Of a DNA stretch of 59,029 bases, positions 2,698 to 45,873 are shown in pieces. The notes under the pieces are model-generated. The model had not been told where the DNA came from. It worked only from the letters and a program-made list of their open reading frames with translations, and did not search any database. The translations under genes and the position numbers were made by a program. How positions within the stretch are numbered: the stretch's first letter is position 1; every line of letters starts with the position of its first letter. The DNA is from an uncultured beta proteobacterium (GTDB lineage: Bacteria > Pseudomonadota > Gammaproteobacteria > Burkholderiales > Burkholderiaceae): the NCBI GenBank assembly GCA_903889595.1, contig CAISYI010000203.1, positions 1 to 59,029 of the forward strand, written 5' to 3'.

Positions 2698-4116
2698 TTA
2701 AAAATTTACCCGACCTCTAAAACTGAAAATATTCACTGGACCTCTATCTTGATTAAATGCAGGATTGACAACATATTGATATCCGCCGCCAAGTGCAAGA
2801 TTTTTGTTGATGATCATGTTGTAGAAGATTTCTGAAATTCGCTCTGTACCATAATTCATCACGCTGCCGGGTGGTTGATTGGGTCCTAAGGGTCCATCAC
2901 CAATCAGGGGTCCTAAGCCACCATTTCCAAAGTAGTTTCTTGCATCACTCGTTAATCCATTCACAATTTGAACGATTCCGAGAGTATCTTGGTGCCGGTT
3001 CCAGTAATTTCCTTTGATTGAAAGACCAAGAACAAAAGATTGATTTACATCAGTAAAATCAAAAGTTTCTTTTGACCCATCGTTAAAACTTGCTTTCGCA
3101 AATAAGCCAAGGGTGGGGGTGATTTCTTGTTCAAAATTTATTGCCATTCCCATTCGGTTAGTGAAGCTCCTTACTAATGCGGTATCTGGACTACTGCCAT
3201 TTTGGTTGGCTAGTCTTACTGCGTCATTATAAGAACCCATATTGGCGTGGGACAAAAATCCGAGTACTTTAAATTTTCCTGGACGACCATCTATTTCATG
3301 ACGTTCCTCAAACTCCTGAATCAATTGATATTGCTTAAAACTTAAATCAATATTCGAGTAATTGGGAAAAGTAGACATTAGGAAGAAGCCAGAGCGTGAA
3401 GTCCACCAGTCCTGATTCCATTCAACCGCTAAACCATTCGTGAATCCCCAAGCATCAGCAGCATAGTCAAAAGCGCCATTTTCCACAGCTGTCCAATTTA
3501 AAAAATCAGTCCGTGGATCGTGAGCATACCTATTCGTGTCAAAAATATCAACAACAGAAAATTTACCTAGGGTTATAACCACATTGTTTTCTGTGGTCCT
3601 AGTTTGGATTTGATTAGGGCCATCCTCAATCTCAACGGGAGTACCACCCAGATCAATCGTTTGTCGAAGAAAAGCGCGGGGAAGTCGGAAATAGGGATCT
3701 TGAGAGCCCACTTTATATGCTTCTCCACTAGAAAATCCGCCTAACCCTAGGGTATTACTAAAACCAAAACCTTGATCAATTTCGGGGTTTAAGTAAAACT
3801 CTGCACCACTCCACAATTTTCGACCTATATAAAGGGTAAAGTCACTGGTTTGGGCGCTAATACTCGAAGGCTCTAAACTGTTTTGTCCCGTATATGGTGC
3901 TCTAAAAGCCGGATGCCACTGGTTCACGTAAGTGGCTTGACCATGAAAACTCCAATTGCTACCTTCTTCTAGGGGGCTTAAATCGCTATTCGTGATGACC
4001 TGTGTCATCGGTTTTAAATTATCTTTTGGAGTTTGAGCTATTGCAGTCGATAAATGTAATAGACAAATAATTAATCCTAAATTGACACAAAAATAACTTT
4101 TGAAAGGGTTTTTCAT
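2698..4116 (-). CDS. OprB-family carbohydrate-type porin, outer membrane
   Basis: Predicted outer-membrane beta-barrel of 472 residues. A signal peptide is visible (positively charged start, hydrophobic core, cut near AIAQ-TP). The mature part is rich in aromatic/glycine beta-strand patterns (FTLYIGRKLWSGAEFYLNPE, LTLGKFSVVDIFD-like stretch) and ends in F (FSFRGRVNF), the C-terminal aromatic expected for BAM-dependent assembly. The pattern fits the OprB (PF04966) group, but the substrate cannot be read from sequence. The start is ATG at 4116; a TTG just upstream also fits and no Shine-Dalgarno is evident. It is divergent from the PstS-like gene and convergent with recR. Confidence 0.8.
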   Translation of the reverse strand: MKNPFKSYFCVNLGLIICLLHLSTAIAQTPKDNLKPMTQVITNSDLSPLEEGSNWSFHGQATYVNQWHPAFRAPYTGQNSLEPSSISAQTSDFTLYIGRKLWSGAEFYLNPEIDQGFGFSNTLGLGGFSSGEAYKVGSQDPYFRLPRAFLRQTIDLGGTPVEIEDGPNQIQTRTTENNVVITLGKFSVVDIFDTNRYAHDPRTDFLNWTAVENGAFDYAADAWGFTNGLAVEWNQDWWTSRSGFFLMSTFPNYSNIDLSFKQYQLIQEFEERHEIDGRPGKFKVLGFLSHANMGSYNDAVRLANQNGSSPDTALVRSFTNRMGMAINFEQEITPTLGLFAKASFNDGSKETFDFTDVNQSFVLGLSIKGNYWNRHQDTLGIVQIVNGLTSDARNYFGNGGLGPLIGDGPLGPNQPPGSVMNYGTERISEIFYNMIINKNLALGGGYQYVVNPAFNQDRGPVNIFSFRGRVNF

Positions 4117-4163
4117 CAAGACGAATGGTTAACAAAATCAACGATTAAATAGGAATAAAAAAT

Positions 4164-41698: not shown

Positions 41699-41716
41699 GC
41701 ATATTTTTAAATATGC
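41699..41716. repeat. Palindrome at the upstream edge of the glnA control region
   Basis: GCATATTT, TT, AAATATGC: perfect eight-base arms with a two-base centre. The last three bases are shared with the NtrC-type dyad that follows. It could be an operator or an AT-rich hairpin ending the upstream operon; there is no proper T tract. Confidence 0.45.
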
Positions 41717-41730
41717 ACGATAATAGTGCT
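41714..41730. promoter_or_regulatory. NtrC-type binding site upstream of glnA
   Basis: TGCAC, seven bases, GTGCT, which fits the NtrC dyad TGCACC-N5-GGTGCA and resembles the E. coli glnA enhancer TGCACCAACATGGTGCTT. It lies 83 bases before the glnA ATG. Only one clear site is present. Confidence 0.6.
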
Positions 41731-41756
41731 TGAGAAGTTAAGAGCAAAGCCTTAAT

Positions 41757-41785
41757 TTGTTTTAATAGATTAAGAATTATTTAAC
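41757..41785 (+). promoter_or_regulatory. Candidate sigma-70 promoter of glnA
   Basis: TTGTTT (41757-41762), 17 bases, TTTAAC (41780-41785). Transcription would start near 41792, leaving a 20-base leader with AGGAG at about 41802. The NtrC dyad would be centred near -70. No sigma-54 -24/-12 pair (GG-N10-GC) fits in the region. Confidence 0.35.
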
Positions 41786-41812: not shown

Positions 41813-43228
41813 ATGAGTAAAGCAGTAGCAGATGTTTTAAAGCTAGTTAAAGACAAAGAAATCACATTTGTTGATTTTCGTTTTACTGATACTAAAGGTA
41901 AAGAGCAGCACGTATCTGTGCCGGTTTCTGTGTTTGATGAAGATAAATTTGAGAGCGGTCATGCATTTGATGGTTCATCAATCGCAGGTTGGAAAGGGAT
42001 CGAAGCATCTGATATGTTGCTGATGCCAGATCCAAGTACTGCTTACATCGATCCGTTTTATGAAGAGCCAACTCTCGTTTTAACTTGTGATGTAGTTGAG
42101 CCTTCCGATGGTAAAGGTTACGATCGTGACCCACGTTCAATCGCTAAACGTTGCGAAGCTTACTTAAAAAGTACCGGTTTAGGTGACACTGCATACTTTG
42201 GTCCAGAACCTGAGTTCTTTATTTTTGATGGTGTTCAGTGGAACACTGACATGCAAGGATCTTTTGTAAAGATACATTCTGAAGAAGCTCAATGGTCATC
42301 AGGTGCAGAAATAGAAGGTGGAAATACTGGTCATCGTCCAGGTAAAAAAGGCGGTTACTTTCCAGTAGCTCCTGTAGATACCTTCCAAGATATGCGTTCT
42401 GAAATGTGTTTGATTTTAGAATCTGTTGGCATTCCTGTTGAAGTTCATCACCACGAAGTTGCTGGTCAAGGTCAAAACGAATTAGGTACTAAATTTAGTA
42501 CTTTAGTGCAACGTGCTGACTGGACAATCCTACAAAAATATATTGTTCATAACGTTGCTCATCAGTACGGTAAAACAGCTACATTCATGCCAAAACCAGT
42601 AGTAGGTGATAACGGTTCAGGTATGCACGTTCATCAGTCAGTTTGGAAAGATGGTATTAATCTTTTTGCTGGTAATGGTTATGCTGGTTTGTCAGAGTTT
42701 GCTTTGTATTACATCGGCGGCATCATTAAACATGCTCGCGCATTGAATGCAATCACGAACCCTGGAACAAACTCTTATAAGCGTTTAGTGCCAGGTTTTG
42801 AAGCTCCAGTTAAACTTGCTTACTCTGCTCGTAACCGTTCTGCTTCAATTCGTATCCCTTATGTTTCAAATCCTAAGGGTCGTCGTATTGAGACACGTTT
42901 TCCAGATCCACTCGCAAACCCATACTTGGCTTTCTCAGCATTGTTAATGGCTGGTCTTGATGGTGTTCAAAACAAGATTCATCCAGGTGAAGCAGCTGAT
43001 AAAAACTTGTATGACTTGCCTCCTGAAGAAGATGCATTAATTCCAACGGTTTGTAGCAGTTTAGATCAAGCCTTAGAGCATCTTGACAAGGATCGTGAGT
43101 TTTTAACTCGCGGCGGTGTGTTCACGGATTCAATGATTGATGCATATATTGCCCTCAAAATGGAAGAAGTTACACGTTTCCGTATGACTACTCATCCAAT
43201 TGAGTTTGAAATGTATTACTCACTCTAA
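41813..43228 (+). CDS. glnA: Glutamine synthetase type I
   Basis: Makes glutamine from glutamate, ammonia and ATP. 471 residues, a normal GSI-beta subunit. Visible are FDGSSIAGW, the Glu/His metal ligands, [12 protein letters not shown], the Glu flap [10 protein letters not shown], and the adenylylation Tyr in [10 protein letters not shown] near residue 400. AGGAG precedes ATG 41813. ntrB and ntrC follow on the same strand, with a terminator-like hairpin between glnA and the body of ntrB. Confidence 0.98.
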
Positions 43229-43246
43229 TTTAAGAAAAAAGCGCCC

Positions 43247-44389
43247 ATGCGCATGATACCGACTAGGGCAGCTTCGGCTGCCCTTTTTAATCCTCAAGAG
43301 GCACTAGATCAGATGCCAAACTCGGTTCTTATCATTGATAAGAGTACCTTGGAAGTGCTTTATGCAAATACGGCAGCTGAAGTCTTTTTCAAGTTATCGA
43401 GAAAGTCATTTGTTGGATGTGAATTGAGAGATTTGTTTGGCAATGATGGGCCGTTTTATGAATCGCTTGAGTTGTTTCAGAGAACTGGTATTACGCAACG
43501 TGTGGATGTTTTATTAGACATTGGTTCTCTTCGTTTAGATCAAAAGGAATGTTTAGCATATCTTATCCTTTCGAATTTAGAAGGGGCTGATTTATTTCTA
43601 ATGGAATGGTTTGAGATTGATCAACGGAACAAAAGTGCACGAGAAGAACGATTAATGATGCAAGCCAGGGCGAATAAAGATTTAATGAGGAATTTAGCTC
43701 ACGAAATTAAAAACCCATTAGGTGGTATCAAGGGTGCTGCTCAGTTGTTAGATTATGAATTACCGGATCCTTCATTAAAAGAATATACCAAGGTCATGAT
43801 TAAAGAGGTTGACCGCTTACAACTCTTAGTTGAAAGGCTGTTAGCGCCTCAGAAAAAACAAAAACAAGTCAGCGAAGTCAATATTCATGAAGTGTTAGAA
43901 AGAGTTCGAAGTGTTGTACTTGCAGAGTTTCCAAAAGGATTGCAAATTACTCGTTTCTATGACGTTAGTATGCCGGACTTCATTGGTGACAAAGAATTAT
44001 TGATTCAAGCTGTTTTGAATATTGTTCATAATGCCGCTCAAATACTTGAAGATCGAATAAAAGATGGGGACGCATTAATTGAGCTTCAAACGAGTATTTC
44101 AAGAAATATTACGATTGCAAAAAAACGTTTTAAGCTTGCGCTAAATATTTTAATTATCGATAACGGTCCTGGAATACCGCCAGAAATTATTGATCATGTT
44201 TTTCTACCTTTAGTATCTGGTAGGGCTTCTGGAAGCGGTTTAGGGCTTACTCTTGCCCAGTCATTTGTCCAGATGCACGGAGGATTTATTAGCGTTGAAA
44301 GTGTTCCAGGTAAGACCGAATTTCATATACAAATTCCGTATACCTCAGCAGATTTTATAACAAGTATTGATTCAAGGAGTTCACAATGA
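43247..44389 (+). CDS. ntrB: Nitrogen regulation sensor kinase NtrB (GlnL)
   Basis: Histidine kinase that controls NtrC according to nitrogen status through PII. 380 residues from ATG 43247: an N-terminal PAS domain starting near residue 20 (ALDQMPNSVLIIDKSTLEVLYAN, split here by reading), the H-box LAHEIKNPLGGIKGAAQLL with the phosphorylated His, then N, D/G (NGPGIPPEIIDHVF) and G2 (GSGLGLTLAQ) boxes. The PAS start reaches upstream of the next ATG (43313), so the early start is needed, and that places a perfect terminator inside codons 7-14. It overlaps ntrC by four bases. Confidence 0.92.
   Translation: MRMIPTRAASAALFNPQEALDQMPNSVLIIDKSTLEVLYANTAAEVFFKLSRKSFVGCELRDLFGNDGPFYESLELFQRTGITQRVDVLLDIGSLRLDQKECLAYLILSNLEGADLFLMEWFEIDQRNKSAREERLMMQARANKDLMRNLAHEIKNPLGGIKGAAQLLDYELPDPSLKEYTKVMIKEVDRLQLLVERLLAPQKKQKQVSEVNIHEVLERVRSVVLAEFPKGLQITRFYDVSMPDFIGDKELLIQAVLNIVHNAAQILEDRIKDGDALIELQTSISRNITIAKKRFKLALNILIIDNGPGIPPEIIDHVFLPLVSGRASGSGLGLTLAQSFVQMHGGFISVESVPGKTEFHIQIPYTSADFITSIDSRSSQ
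43266..43288 (+). terminator. Intrinsic terminator/attenuator inside the 5' end of ntrB
   Basis: GGGCAGC, TTCG loop, GCTGCCC, then TTTTT: a textbook rho-independent terminator with an extra-stable UUCG tetraloop, 38 bases after the glnA stop. It is translated as part of ntrB if the gene starts at ATG 43247. It probably reduces read-through from glnA into ntrBC. Confidence 0.85.
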
Positions 44390-45873
44390 GAGCCGTCTGG
44401 ATTGTAGATGATGATCAATCTATTCGTTGGGTTTTAGAAAAGTCTTTAGCAAGAGAAGGCATTCCCTTTAAAAGTTTTTCTAACCCTGATGACGTTTTAG
44501 ATCTTCTAGAAAAAGAAAAGCCCCAGGTAATCATTTCGGATATTCGTATGCCTAAAGGCAGCGGTATCACTTTGCTACAACAGATAAAACAGGACTTCCC
44601 TAAGATCCCCGTCATTATTATGACTGCCTTCTCAGATATGGAATCAGCTGTTTCCGCATTTCAAGGTGGTGCATTTGAATACATCACAAAGCCCTTTGAT
44701 ATTGCTGATGTGATTACACTTATTACCAGGGCGGTAAATGAAAGTATTAGTTTAGAAGTTGTAAAAACACAATTTGCTCCAAATATGGTGGCAAGTGGTT
44801 CAATGCCGCCAGAACTGATTGGGCAAGCACCATCGATGCAAGAGATTTTTAGAGCAGTTGGAAGACTTGCTCAATCTAATGCCAGTATTTTGATTACTGG
44901 TGAATCAGGGACTGGTAAAGAATTAGTTGCGAGAGCATTACATCGTCACGGTGATCGTTCTTCTGCACCTTTTATTGAATTTAATTTAGCGAAAATTTCG
45001 AAAGATTTAATTGAAGCAGAGTTATTTGGATATGAACGGGGCGCTTTTGCCAATGCACCAACGATGAAGCGTGGTTGTTTTGAACAAGCAGATGGCGGCA
45101 CTCTCTTTTTGGATGAAGTAGGGGATTTACCGCTTGAATTGCAAGGCACATTACTTCGACTGATTGAAGATGGAAGATTTTATCGAATTGGAGGTCAGCA
45201 AGAGCTCAAGTGTAACGTTCGATTTATTGCGTCTAGTTTTAAAAATTTAGAGGCCTTAGTAGCCAGTGGACAATTTAGAGAAGACTTATTTTATCGTTTA
45301 AACGTGATTCGCCTTCGTTTGCCAGCTTTACGCGATCGAAAAGAGGATATTCCAATTCTGACGCAACATTTCTTAATGATGAGTGCTAGAGAATTAAGTG
45401 TTAAACCGAAGATTTTAAATCCCTTAACGCTAGATATTCTTTCCATGATGCAACTCCCTGGAAACGTTCGTGAGCTTCAAAATATTTGTCATCGTTTAAC
45501 AGTAATGGTTTCTGCCCAAGAAATTATGCCGAAAGACTTGCCTAAGGATTTCCATCAATCTAACCCAACAAGTATCTCTGGTAATAATTTAGACTTTGTC
45601 AATCCTGAAAAAATTATTCCTGTAGCATCTATTACTTCGCCAGTGACACATCCGAATAGCACCTCTTGGGAAAGTGGTTTGAAGTTAATAGCAAAAAAAA
45701 TGTTAGAGGCAAATAATGAGGGTGTTTACCAAGAGTTATTGAATAAATTTGAAAAATCCTTGATTGAAACTGCTCTTGAAGTTACGCGAGGCAGAAAAGT
45801 GGAGGCTGCGGAGCGTTTAGGGATTGGTCGCAATACCATTACTCGAAAGGTTCAAGAGTTAAATATTGAATAG
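44386..45873 (+). CDS. ntrC: Nitrogen regulator NtrC with altered sigma-54 loop
   Basis: Response regulator and AAA+ activator, 495 residues. Receiver domain with phospho-acceptor in VIISDIRMP and Lys in YITKPFD; AAA+ domain with Walker A GESGTGKE, Walker B GGTLFLDEVGD and arginine finger FREDLFYRLNV; Fis-type DNA-binding C-terminus (VEAAERLGIGRNTITRKVQEL). The loop that contacts sigma-54, GAFTGA in typical activators, reads GAFANA here (45040-45057, residues 219-224), and the sensor I stretch is also unusual (IASSFKNLE). It may therefore not work with sigma-54; R. capsulatus NtrC is a known sigma-70 precedent lacking GAFTGA. Confidence 0.95.
   Translation: MRAVWIVDDDQSIRWVLEKSLAREGIPFKSFSNPDDVLDLLEKEKPQVIISDIRMPKGSGITLLQQIKQDFPKIPVIIMTAFSDMESAVSAFQGGAFEYITKPFDIADVITLITRAVNESISLEVVKTQFAPNMVASGSMPPELIGQAPSMQEIFRAVGRLAQSNASILITGESGTGKELVARALHRHGDRSSAPFIEFNLAKISKDLIEAELFGYERGAFANAPTMKRGCFEQADGGTLFLDEVGDLPLELQGTLLRLIEDGRFYRIGGQQELKCNVRFIASSFKNLEALVASGQFREDLFYRLNVIRLRLPALRDRKEDIPILTQHFLMMSARELSVKPKILNPLTLDILSMMQLPGNVRELQNICHRLTVMVSAQEIMPKDLPKDFHQSNPTSISGNNLDFVNPEKIIPVASITSPVTHPNSTSWESGLKLIAKKMLEANNEGVYQELLNKFEKSLIETALEVTRGRKVEAAERLGIGRNTITRKVQELNIE

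Follow-up and report, generated by a model that had tools for sequence, protein, structure and literature searches.

An NtrC protein of Polynucleobacter with GAFANA in place of the GAFTGA loop and its probable uncoupling from sigma-54

The window, a stretch of 59,029 nucleotides, contains a glnA-ntrB-ntrC cluster on the + strand (41813-45873), which is the gene context expected for an NtrC orthologue. The cluster begins with the glutamine synthetase gene glnA (41813..43228, PF00120/PF03951), followed by ntrB (glnL), coding for a sensor kinase that scores above the cut-off of the NR(II) model NF008293 (43247..44389), and by ntrC (glnG; 44386..45873). The 495-residue NtrC-family response regulator encoded by the latter reaches 597.9 bits with the NCBIfam ntrC equivalog model TIGR01818 (cut-off 558.6) and is thus assigned as an NtrC (NR(I)) orthologue; with the narrower model NF008176, it stays under the cut-off (563 vs 620). 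Response_reg, Sigma54_activat and HTH_8 domains are recognised by Pfam. At 45040..45057 (GGCGCTTTTGCCAATGCA), the reading frame encodes GAFANA (residues 219-224) in place of the GAFTGA of the L1 loop, as the initial annotation had noted, and the Thr or Ser expected of a bEBP at position 4 of this loop is absent. The same annotation had described the ATPase core as otherwise intact and sensor I as unusual, and both descriptions hold: Walker A (GESGTGKE, 44899..44922), Walker B (LFLDEVG, 45103..45123) and the arginine-finger region (FREDLFYRLN, 45274..45303) are intact, and sensor I reads ASSFKNLE (45229..45252) instead of the AATHQNLE found in all 24 NtrCs of the genus that keep the loop Thr, the Thr-less proteins having chiefly AST- or ASS-type sequences. 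The phospho-acceptor Asp of the receiver (residue 52, 44539..44541) is present, as is a Fis-type helix-turn-helix (HTH_8, 45742..45858). The protein therefore combines an altered L1 loop with an intact receiver and HTH, as would be expected of a sigma-70-acting NtrC without GAFTGA.

The window belongs to Polynucleobacter, namely to the P. rarus/P. kasalickyi clade, in which the same loop is found. The NtrCs of P. rarus and of a related MAG (94% identical each) and that of P. kasalickyi (91%) likewise have GAFANA, and dN/dS in the AAA+ domain of four GAFANA proteins is 0.007-0.026 (four of six pairs with estimable dS), which argues against a sequencing error or chance. The alignment of relatives that the initial annotation had called for thus bears out the loop itself, but not its standing as a one-off. 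NtrC was obtained from 175 of the 186 genomes of the genus; the eleven left out comprise three complete genomes with a broken ntrC or none found (G094, G182 and G185) and eight genomes that are 56-84% complete. With the exception of G180 (446 residues), whose ntrC contains an internal stop, these proteins have at least 460 residues in a single open frame (174/175). The loop Thr is kept in 24 of the 175 (GAFTGA in 23, GSFTGA in one) and is absent from the other 151, mostly in the form of GAFPGA (114), with GAFANA (9), GAFQGA (5), AQFGNT (5) and rarer forms making up the rest. Two irregular loci were seen along the way: the complete genome G182 has a stretch of ~345 bases inverted inside the AAA+ part of ntrC (L400, G182:C1:625500-632500, at about 3801-4142), with nothing beyond a 10-base inverted match found near its ends, and the draft G295 has two full-length ntrC matches on contigs C66 and C53, which reflect a duplication or mixed strains.

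The loop type is associated with the presence of rpoN. All 24 genomes with a Thr-loop NtrC have rpoN, and among the 151 Thr-less genomes, 112 have no rpoN match and 39 have one. Over the genus, PF04552 detects rpoN in 68 of 186 genomes, five of them among the eleven outside the NtrC set, and in 54 of the 144 with a completeness of 90% or more and a contamination of 5% or less; the second rpoN domain, PF04963, agrees with PF04552 in all 22 genomes tested (nine positive, 13 negative). One of the 39 matches is a broken remnant with four stops (G271:C55:31090-31413), the sole rpoN match of G271. G196 has an intact rpoN together with a degraded second copy (G196:C1:1765947-1766228). It could be argued that the GAFANA protein still drives the sigma-54 polymerase and that rpoN was missed, as the genome of the window is an 86% complete draft in 291 contigs, and since a change of the second Gly to Asn, the position 5 change of GAFANA, is reported to have made NorR constitutive (PMC2941729). 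However, a search of the full genome, which had been suggested as a check, found no rpoN in this draft by either domain, and both domains are likewise absent from G188 (P. rarus; 99% complete, 2 contigs), G169 (P. kasalickyi; 99%) and G297, such that the sigma-54 gene expected alongside a bEBP was found in none of the four. Furthermore, the conserved Thr is reported to be critical for sigma-54 contact in PspF (PMC2941729), and the -24/-12 sites described below have no close counterpart at glnA of the clade or at glnK-amtB of G188 and G169. A missed rpoN is made unlikely by the two domains and the near-complete relatives, and we regard continued sigma-54 activation by the GAFANA protein as extremely improbable. 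As the second-Gly to Asn change alone left NorR active in the account given there (PMC2941729), the case for lost sigma-54 activation rests on the loop Thr and not on this change.

What sigma-54 might still do in these genomes is suggested by a second activator. FlrC-like proteins (matches with E <= 1e-110) are present in 38 of the 186 genomes, all 38 of them rpoN-positive; among the partial matches, five lack the query up to about residue 160 and two stop at about 420. FlrC-like matches were found in 33 of the 39 genomes that combine a Thr-less NtrC with an rpoN match (four of the 33 being partial, from residue 165-170), the six without one being G199, G292, G271, G308, G306 and G315. The FlrC-like loop was read in 16 genomes and contains Thr in every case (GSFTGA in 13, GAFTGA in G249, G160 and G222), including the 12 that belong to the 33 Thr-less genomes. 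At the two loci read, L392 and L381, the FlrC-like gene adjoins genes for a FliE-like protein and an FlrB-like kinase, named by reading. Sigma-54 thus seems to have been kept for flagella in most rpoN-match genomes whose NtrC lost the loop, and it would have outlived its use by NtrC. Only four of the 24 Thr-loop genomes have an FlrC-like match, and in this group NtrC itself and, in some genomes, other activators are candidate sigma-54 partners.

We scanned 170 glnA loci, in which some species are counted twice as they derive from two collections, for -24/-12 sites with at most two mismatches. Sites were found at 22 of 22 outgroup loci, at 10 of 20 Thr-loop Polynucleobacter loci, all ten of the TGGCATGCTT type at -87 to -97, and at one of 128 Thr-less loci (L267, at -284). 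A second clade of Thr-loop loci, with G264 and G200 among its members, and the two GSFTGA loci have no such site, and upstream of glnA in the window, as in L035-L037, the scan gives nothing under four mismatches. Many GAFPGA loci have a weak GGGCAT-N5-ATGCC stretch at about -80 of glnA with three to four mismatches to the -24/-12 consensus, which is perhaps a decayed remnant of such a site, or something else; at times (for example in L080, L090 and L280) it forms a near-perfect inverted repeat. At glnK-amtB, sites with no or one mismatch lie 64-67 nt upstream in all five examinable Thr-loop genomes (G127, G210, G249, G200 and G264; the G202 locus is cut), and none of 11 Thr-less genomes has a site with at most one mismatch there. 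Three of these 11 regions contain a two-mismatch match far upstream (-219, -600 and -615), and G188 and G169 have none with at most two mismatches; in the window's own genome, the start of the glnK-amtB operon lies beyond the contig end. The -24/-12 promoters expected at the targets of a bEBP are therefore missing at glnA of the window and L035-L037 and at glnK-amtB of G188 and G169. Close relatives with GAFTGA and rpoN that share the promoter targets of this protein had been named at the outset as the observation that would speak against a switch. Members with GAFTGA and rpoN do exist, but their glnK-amtB regions, and in one clade also glnA, carry -24/-12 sites with no counterpart in G188 and G169.

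A different arrangement is found upstream of glnA. In the window, an NtrC-type dyad (TGCACGATAATAGTGCT, 41714..41730, + strand) with two mismatches to TGCACY-N5-RGTGCA is followed by a putative extended -10 element, TG-T-TTTAAT (41758..41766, + strand), the hexamer of which (41761-41766) starts 30 nt after the dyad. Allowing any dyad with at most two mismatches per locus and requiring at least four of six matches to TATAAT, a hexamer is present 30 nt past the dyad in 30 of 35 non-redundant Polynucleobacter upstream regions, compared with a median of 4/35 over offsets of 5-49 and 13/35 for the next best offset; this figure is descriptive, since homologous loci were counted and the offset had been noticed by eye beforehand. 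Among the five exceptions, L049, L050 and L224 have TAAAAT at offset 31. The combination occurs in one of the 15 outgroup loci that have a dyad (17 loci in all). The putative promoter of amt2, a second ammonium-transporter gene, is independent of glnA and agrees with this geometry: nine of 12 loci have a dyad with at most one mismatch, and all nine have a hexamer with at least five of six matches, at offset 30 in seven and at offset 29 in the other two, the window's own genome and G188, both of which read TATAAT. The amt2 regions of G255, G127 and G210 have no dyad with at most one mismatch. Over both genes the spacing is fixed to 29-31 nt, and the dyad would cover about -59 to -43 of the putative promoter with its centre near -51. 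At a spacing of 16-18, the best -35 match averages 2.1 of six positions in 30 loci, as compared to 2.5 at random places. A TG at the extended -10 position of glnA is found in six of six non-redundant loci of the window's clade and in one of 24 elsewhere. The dyad and the hexamer at offset 30 are also present in genomes that keep GAFTGA, and the geometry is therefore not a consequence of loop loss. Dyads with at most two mismatches are also found at glnK-amtB in all 11 Thr-less genomes, with no clear -10 at +30 in these regions. Dyads near smpB and an ATP-grasp-like gene (named by reading) were considered as further cases of the geometry and set aside, as no hexamer is seen at +30 by eye. The exact NtrC consensus was likewise discarded as a regulon map after a search of ten genomes, which gave few matches, several of them inside coding regions, and none in the window's genome or G188. 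A small inverted repeat, CTTAAT...ATTAAG, surrounds the putative glnA -10 of the window (41751-41775), with CCTTATT...AATAAGG in L043 and L045, and is possibly an operator or an RNA hairpin.

Taken alone, the geometry of dyad and hexamer is compatible with either sign of regulation. In E. coli, glnAp1 is repressed by NtrC, and NtrC of Polynucleobacter might similarly act mainly against sigma-70 promoters, as a repressor or an anti-activator, with glnA and amt being under other control during nitrogen limitation. The Caulobacter NtrC is reported to be both an activator and a repressor (PMC10274813). However, the dyad lies clear of the putative core promoter, and the glnA and amt2 promoters lack a -35, as expected for promoters that depend on an activator. 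We therefore consider a mainly repressing NtrC unlikely, though worth keeping in view, and favour activation.

Next to the loop, the AAA+ domain is changed in further ways. The receiver DDD, phospho-Asp, Thr and Lys as well as the Walker A Lys are invariant in all 175 NtrCs of the genus. The Walker B Asp is present in all 24 Thr-loop proteins and replaced by Gly in 63 and by Asn in one of the 151 Thr-less proteins; 13 of the 63 Gly variants come from rpoN-positive genomes. Compared with 11 outgroup NtrCs, the Thr-loop proteins have identities of 0.659 in the receiver, 0.772 in the AAA+ domain and 0.622 in the DNA-binding domain, the corresponding values for the window's clade (n=15) being 0.605, 0.622 and 0.612, and the remaining Thr-less proteins have an AAA+ identity of 0.70-0.71. 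By this measure, the divergence of the window's clade is focused on the AAA+ domain and is least in the DNA-binding domain. One might regard this as simple decay of the AAA+ domain in a protein on its way out, with loop changes that have no regulatory meaning, and the broken or absent ntrC of the complete genomes G094, G182 and G185, the 63 lost Walker B Asp residues and the stop inside the G180 gene are in line with this. However, dN/dS within Thr-less clades does not exceed 0.051 at unsaturated dS, apart from 0.072 in the short DNA-binding domain, so that all domains of pairs with estimable dS stay at or below 0.072, which indicates that the altered NtrC is under selection. The invariant receiver and the single open frame in 174 of 175 genes likewise speak against decay. 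We reject a decaying pseudogene from the dN/dS values and the receiver conservation, and we consider decay without regulatory meaning very unlikely.

A tree of 86 representative NtrCs, made with a quick method after removal of the loop and Walker B Asp columns, separates the window's clade as one side of a branch with a support of 100. Proteins with a loop Thr make up two clades, and the loop Thr changes twice on this tree, the Walker B residue once and rpoN 15 times, a count that incomplete genomes may inflate. Two independent losses of the loop Thr are nevertheless not certain: the tree needs two changes, but a single Thr-less clade is not rejected by the AU test (p 0.425), and we therefore speak of one or two losses. 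Outside the genus, 25 loci of other genera have GAFTGA in 24 cases and GSFTGA in L095. In a second genus of the family, g21, six genomes without an rpoN match (L404, L406, L408, L410, L411 and L412) have GAFSGA, GAFVGA, GSFSAA or GAFAGA, apparently a further loss. In genus g22, G022, G042 and G057 (L405, L407 and L409) have an NtrC-like protein with GAFTGA and no rpoN match, the reverse of the situation in Polynucleobacter, which counts against a strict loop-first order.

The initial annotation had pointed to Rhodobacter capsulatus as the established precedent. The comparison is apt in kind, but this is not the sole case, as NtrC of Caulobacter has been published (PMC10274813) and ~110 homologues with minor deviations from GAFTGA, among which Thr/Ser to Pro is preferred, were described by Francke in 2011 (PMC3162934). 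NtrC of R. capsulatus lacks GAFTGA, is controlled by phosphorylation and is reported to activate via sigma-70, with ATP binding but not hydrolysis being essential (as cited in PMC10274813). In R. capsulatus and other Rhodobacterales the L1 loop is deleted, whereas in Polynucleobacter it has its full length and differs by substitutions, the dyad is fixed near -51 of the putative -10, and rpoN matches are missing from many species. NtrC of Caulobacter also lacks GAFTGA and regulates glnA, and it is reported both to activate and to repress at sigma-70 promoters (PMC10274813, PMC12421884). It has an eight-residue deletion in L1 rather than a substitution, and its Walker A and B residues are reported to be needed, unlike the Walker B Asp lost from 63 Polynucleobacter proteins. 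In a 2025 study, DNA-binding mutants of this GAFTGA-less Caulobacter NtrC are reported to raise sigma-54 flagellar genes (PMC12421884), which counts against our explanation. TyrR, DhaR and HupR are described as sigma-70 dependent (PMC3162934), and these and others such as VpsR have a Sigma54_activat domain with an altered loop, like the Polynucleobacter NtrC; yet they are other regulators for other signals, whereas in Polynucleobacter it is the standard nitrogen regulator that has changed within a single genus, with relatives at several stages. Loop function is covered in PMC2941729 and PMC7175178. The P. asymbioticus genome paper contains neither the term rpoN nor two-component (PMC3308952), and the literature searched on Polynucleobacter with rpoN, NtrC and sigma-54 or flagella does not describe the loop change, though the supplements of PMC3162934 may list such proteins. 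Within this literature, a stepwise, genus-wide route by substitution with a fixed promoter geometry looks new.

Activation of the sigma-54 polymerase proceeds by ATP-driven remodelling, and activation of the sigma-70 polymerase by contact or recruitment. The initial annotation had proposed a switch from the former to the latter, and its two halves fare differently: NtrC of the window's clade is very probably no longer coupled to sigma-54, given the absence of an rpoN match and the lack of a close -24/-12 site at glnA, and activation of the sigma-70 polymerase is something we infer from promoter architecture. From the sequences compared here, we consider it likely that the Polynucleobacter NtrC is a functional, phosphorylation-controlled nitrogen regulator that works without sigma-54, most likely at sigma-70 promoters and probably as an activator. 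Once phosphorylated, NtrC would occupy the dyad around -51 and would either bring in RNA polymerase or stabilise it at a promoter that has a -10, which is how we infer the hexamer to be used, and no recognisable -35; in the window's clade the glnA -10 would be extended, and the targets would be glnA-ntrB-ntrC and amt2.

With regard to the order of events, we propose that both kinds of target promoter were present in the ancestor of the genus, that the L1 loop Thr was then lost once or twice with sigma-54 still present for flagella, and that the -24/-12 sites would have vanished next, followed by repeated loss of rpoN. Polynucleobacter might hold living steps of a bEBP leaving sigma-54: first a dual-mode NtrC, with sigma-54 at glnK-amtB and, by way of the dyad near -51, sigma-70 at glnA and amt2; second, the loss of the loop Thr with sigma-54 kept for flagella; and third, the loss of the Walker B Asp, confined to a single lineage, with rpoN lost many times. 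On this view, today's NtrC would be an AAA+ protein turned into an ordinary contact activator, and one part of the genus would do without ATP hydrolysis. For this fuller course of events, we see the chances as evenly balanced.

Taken together, the switches of the R. capsulatus and Caulobacter NtrC proteins are end points with loop deletions, whereas Polynucleobacter holds both ends and the intermediates. The domain-only annotation "sigma-54-dependent regulator" is probably wrong for most Polynucleobacter NtrCs. As this is an abundant freshwater genus that includes named isolates, a change of partner without loss of the regulon becomes testable.
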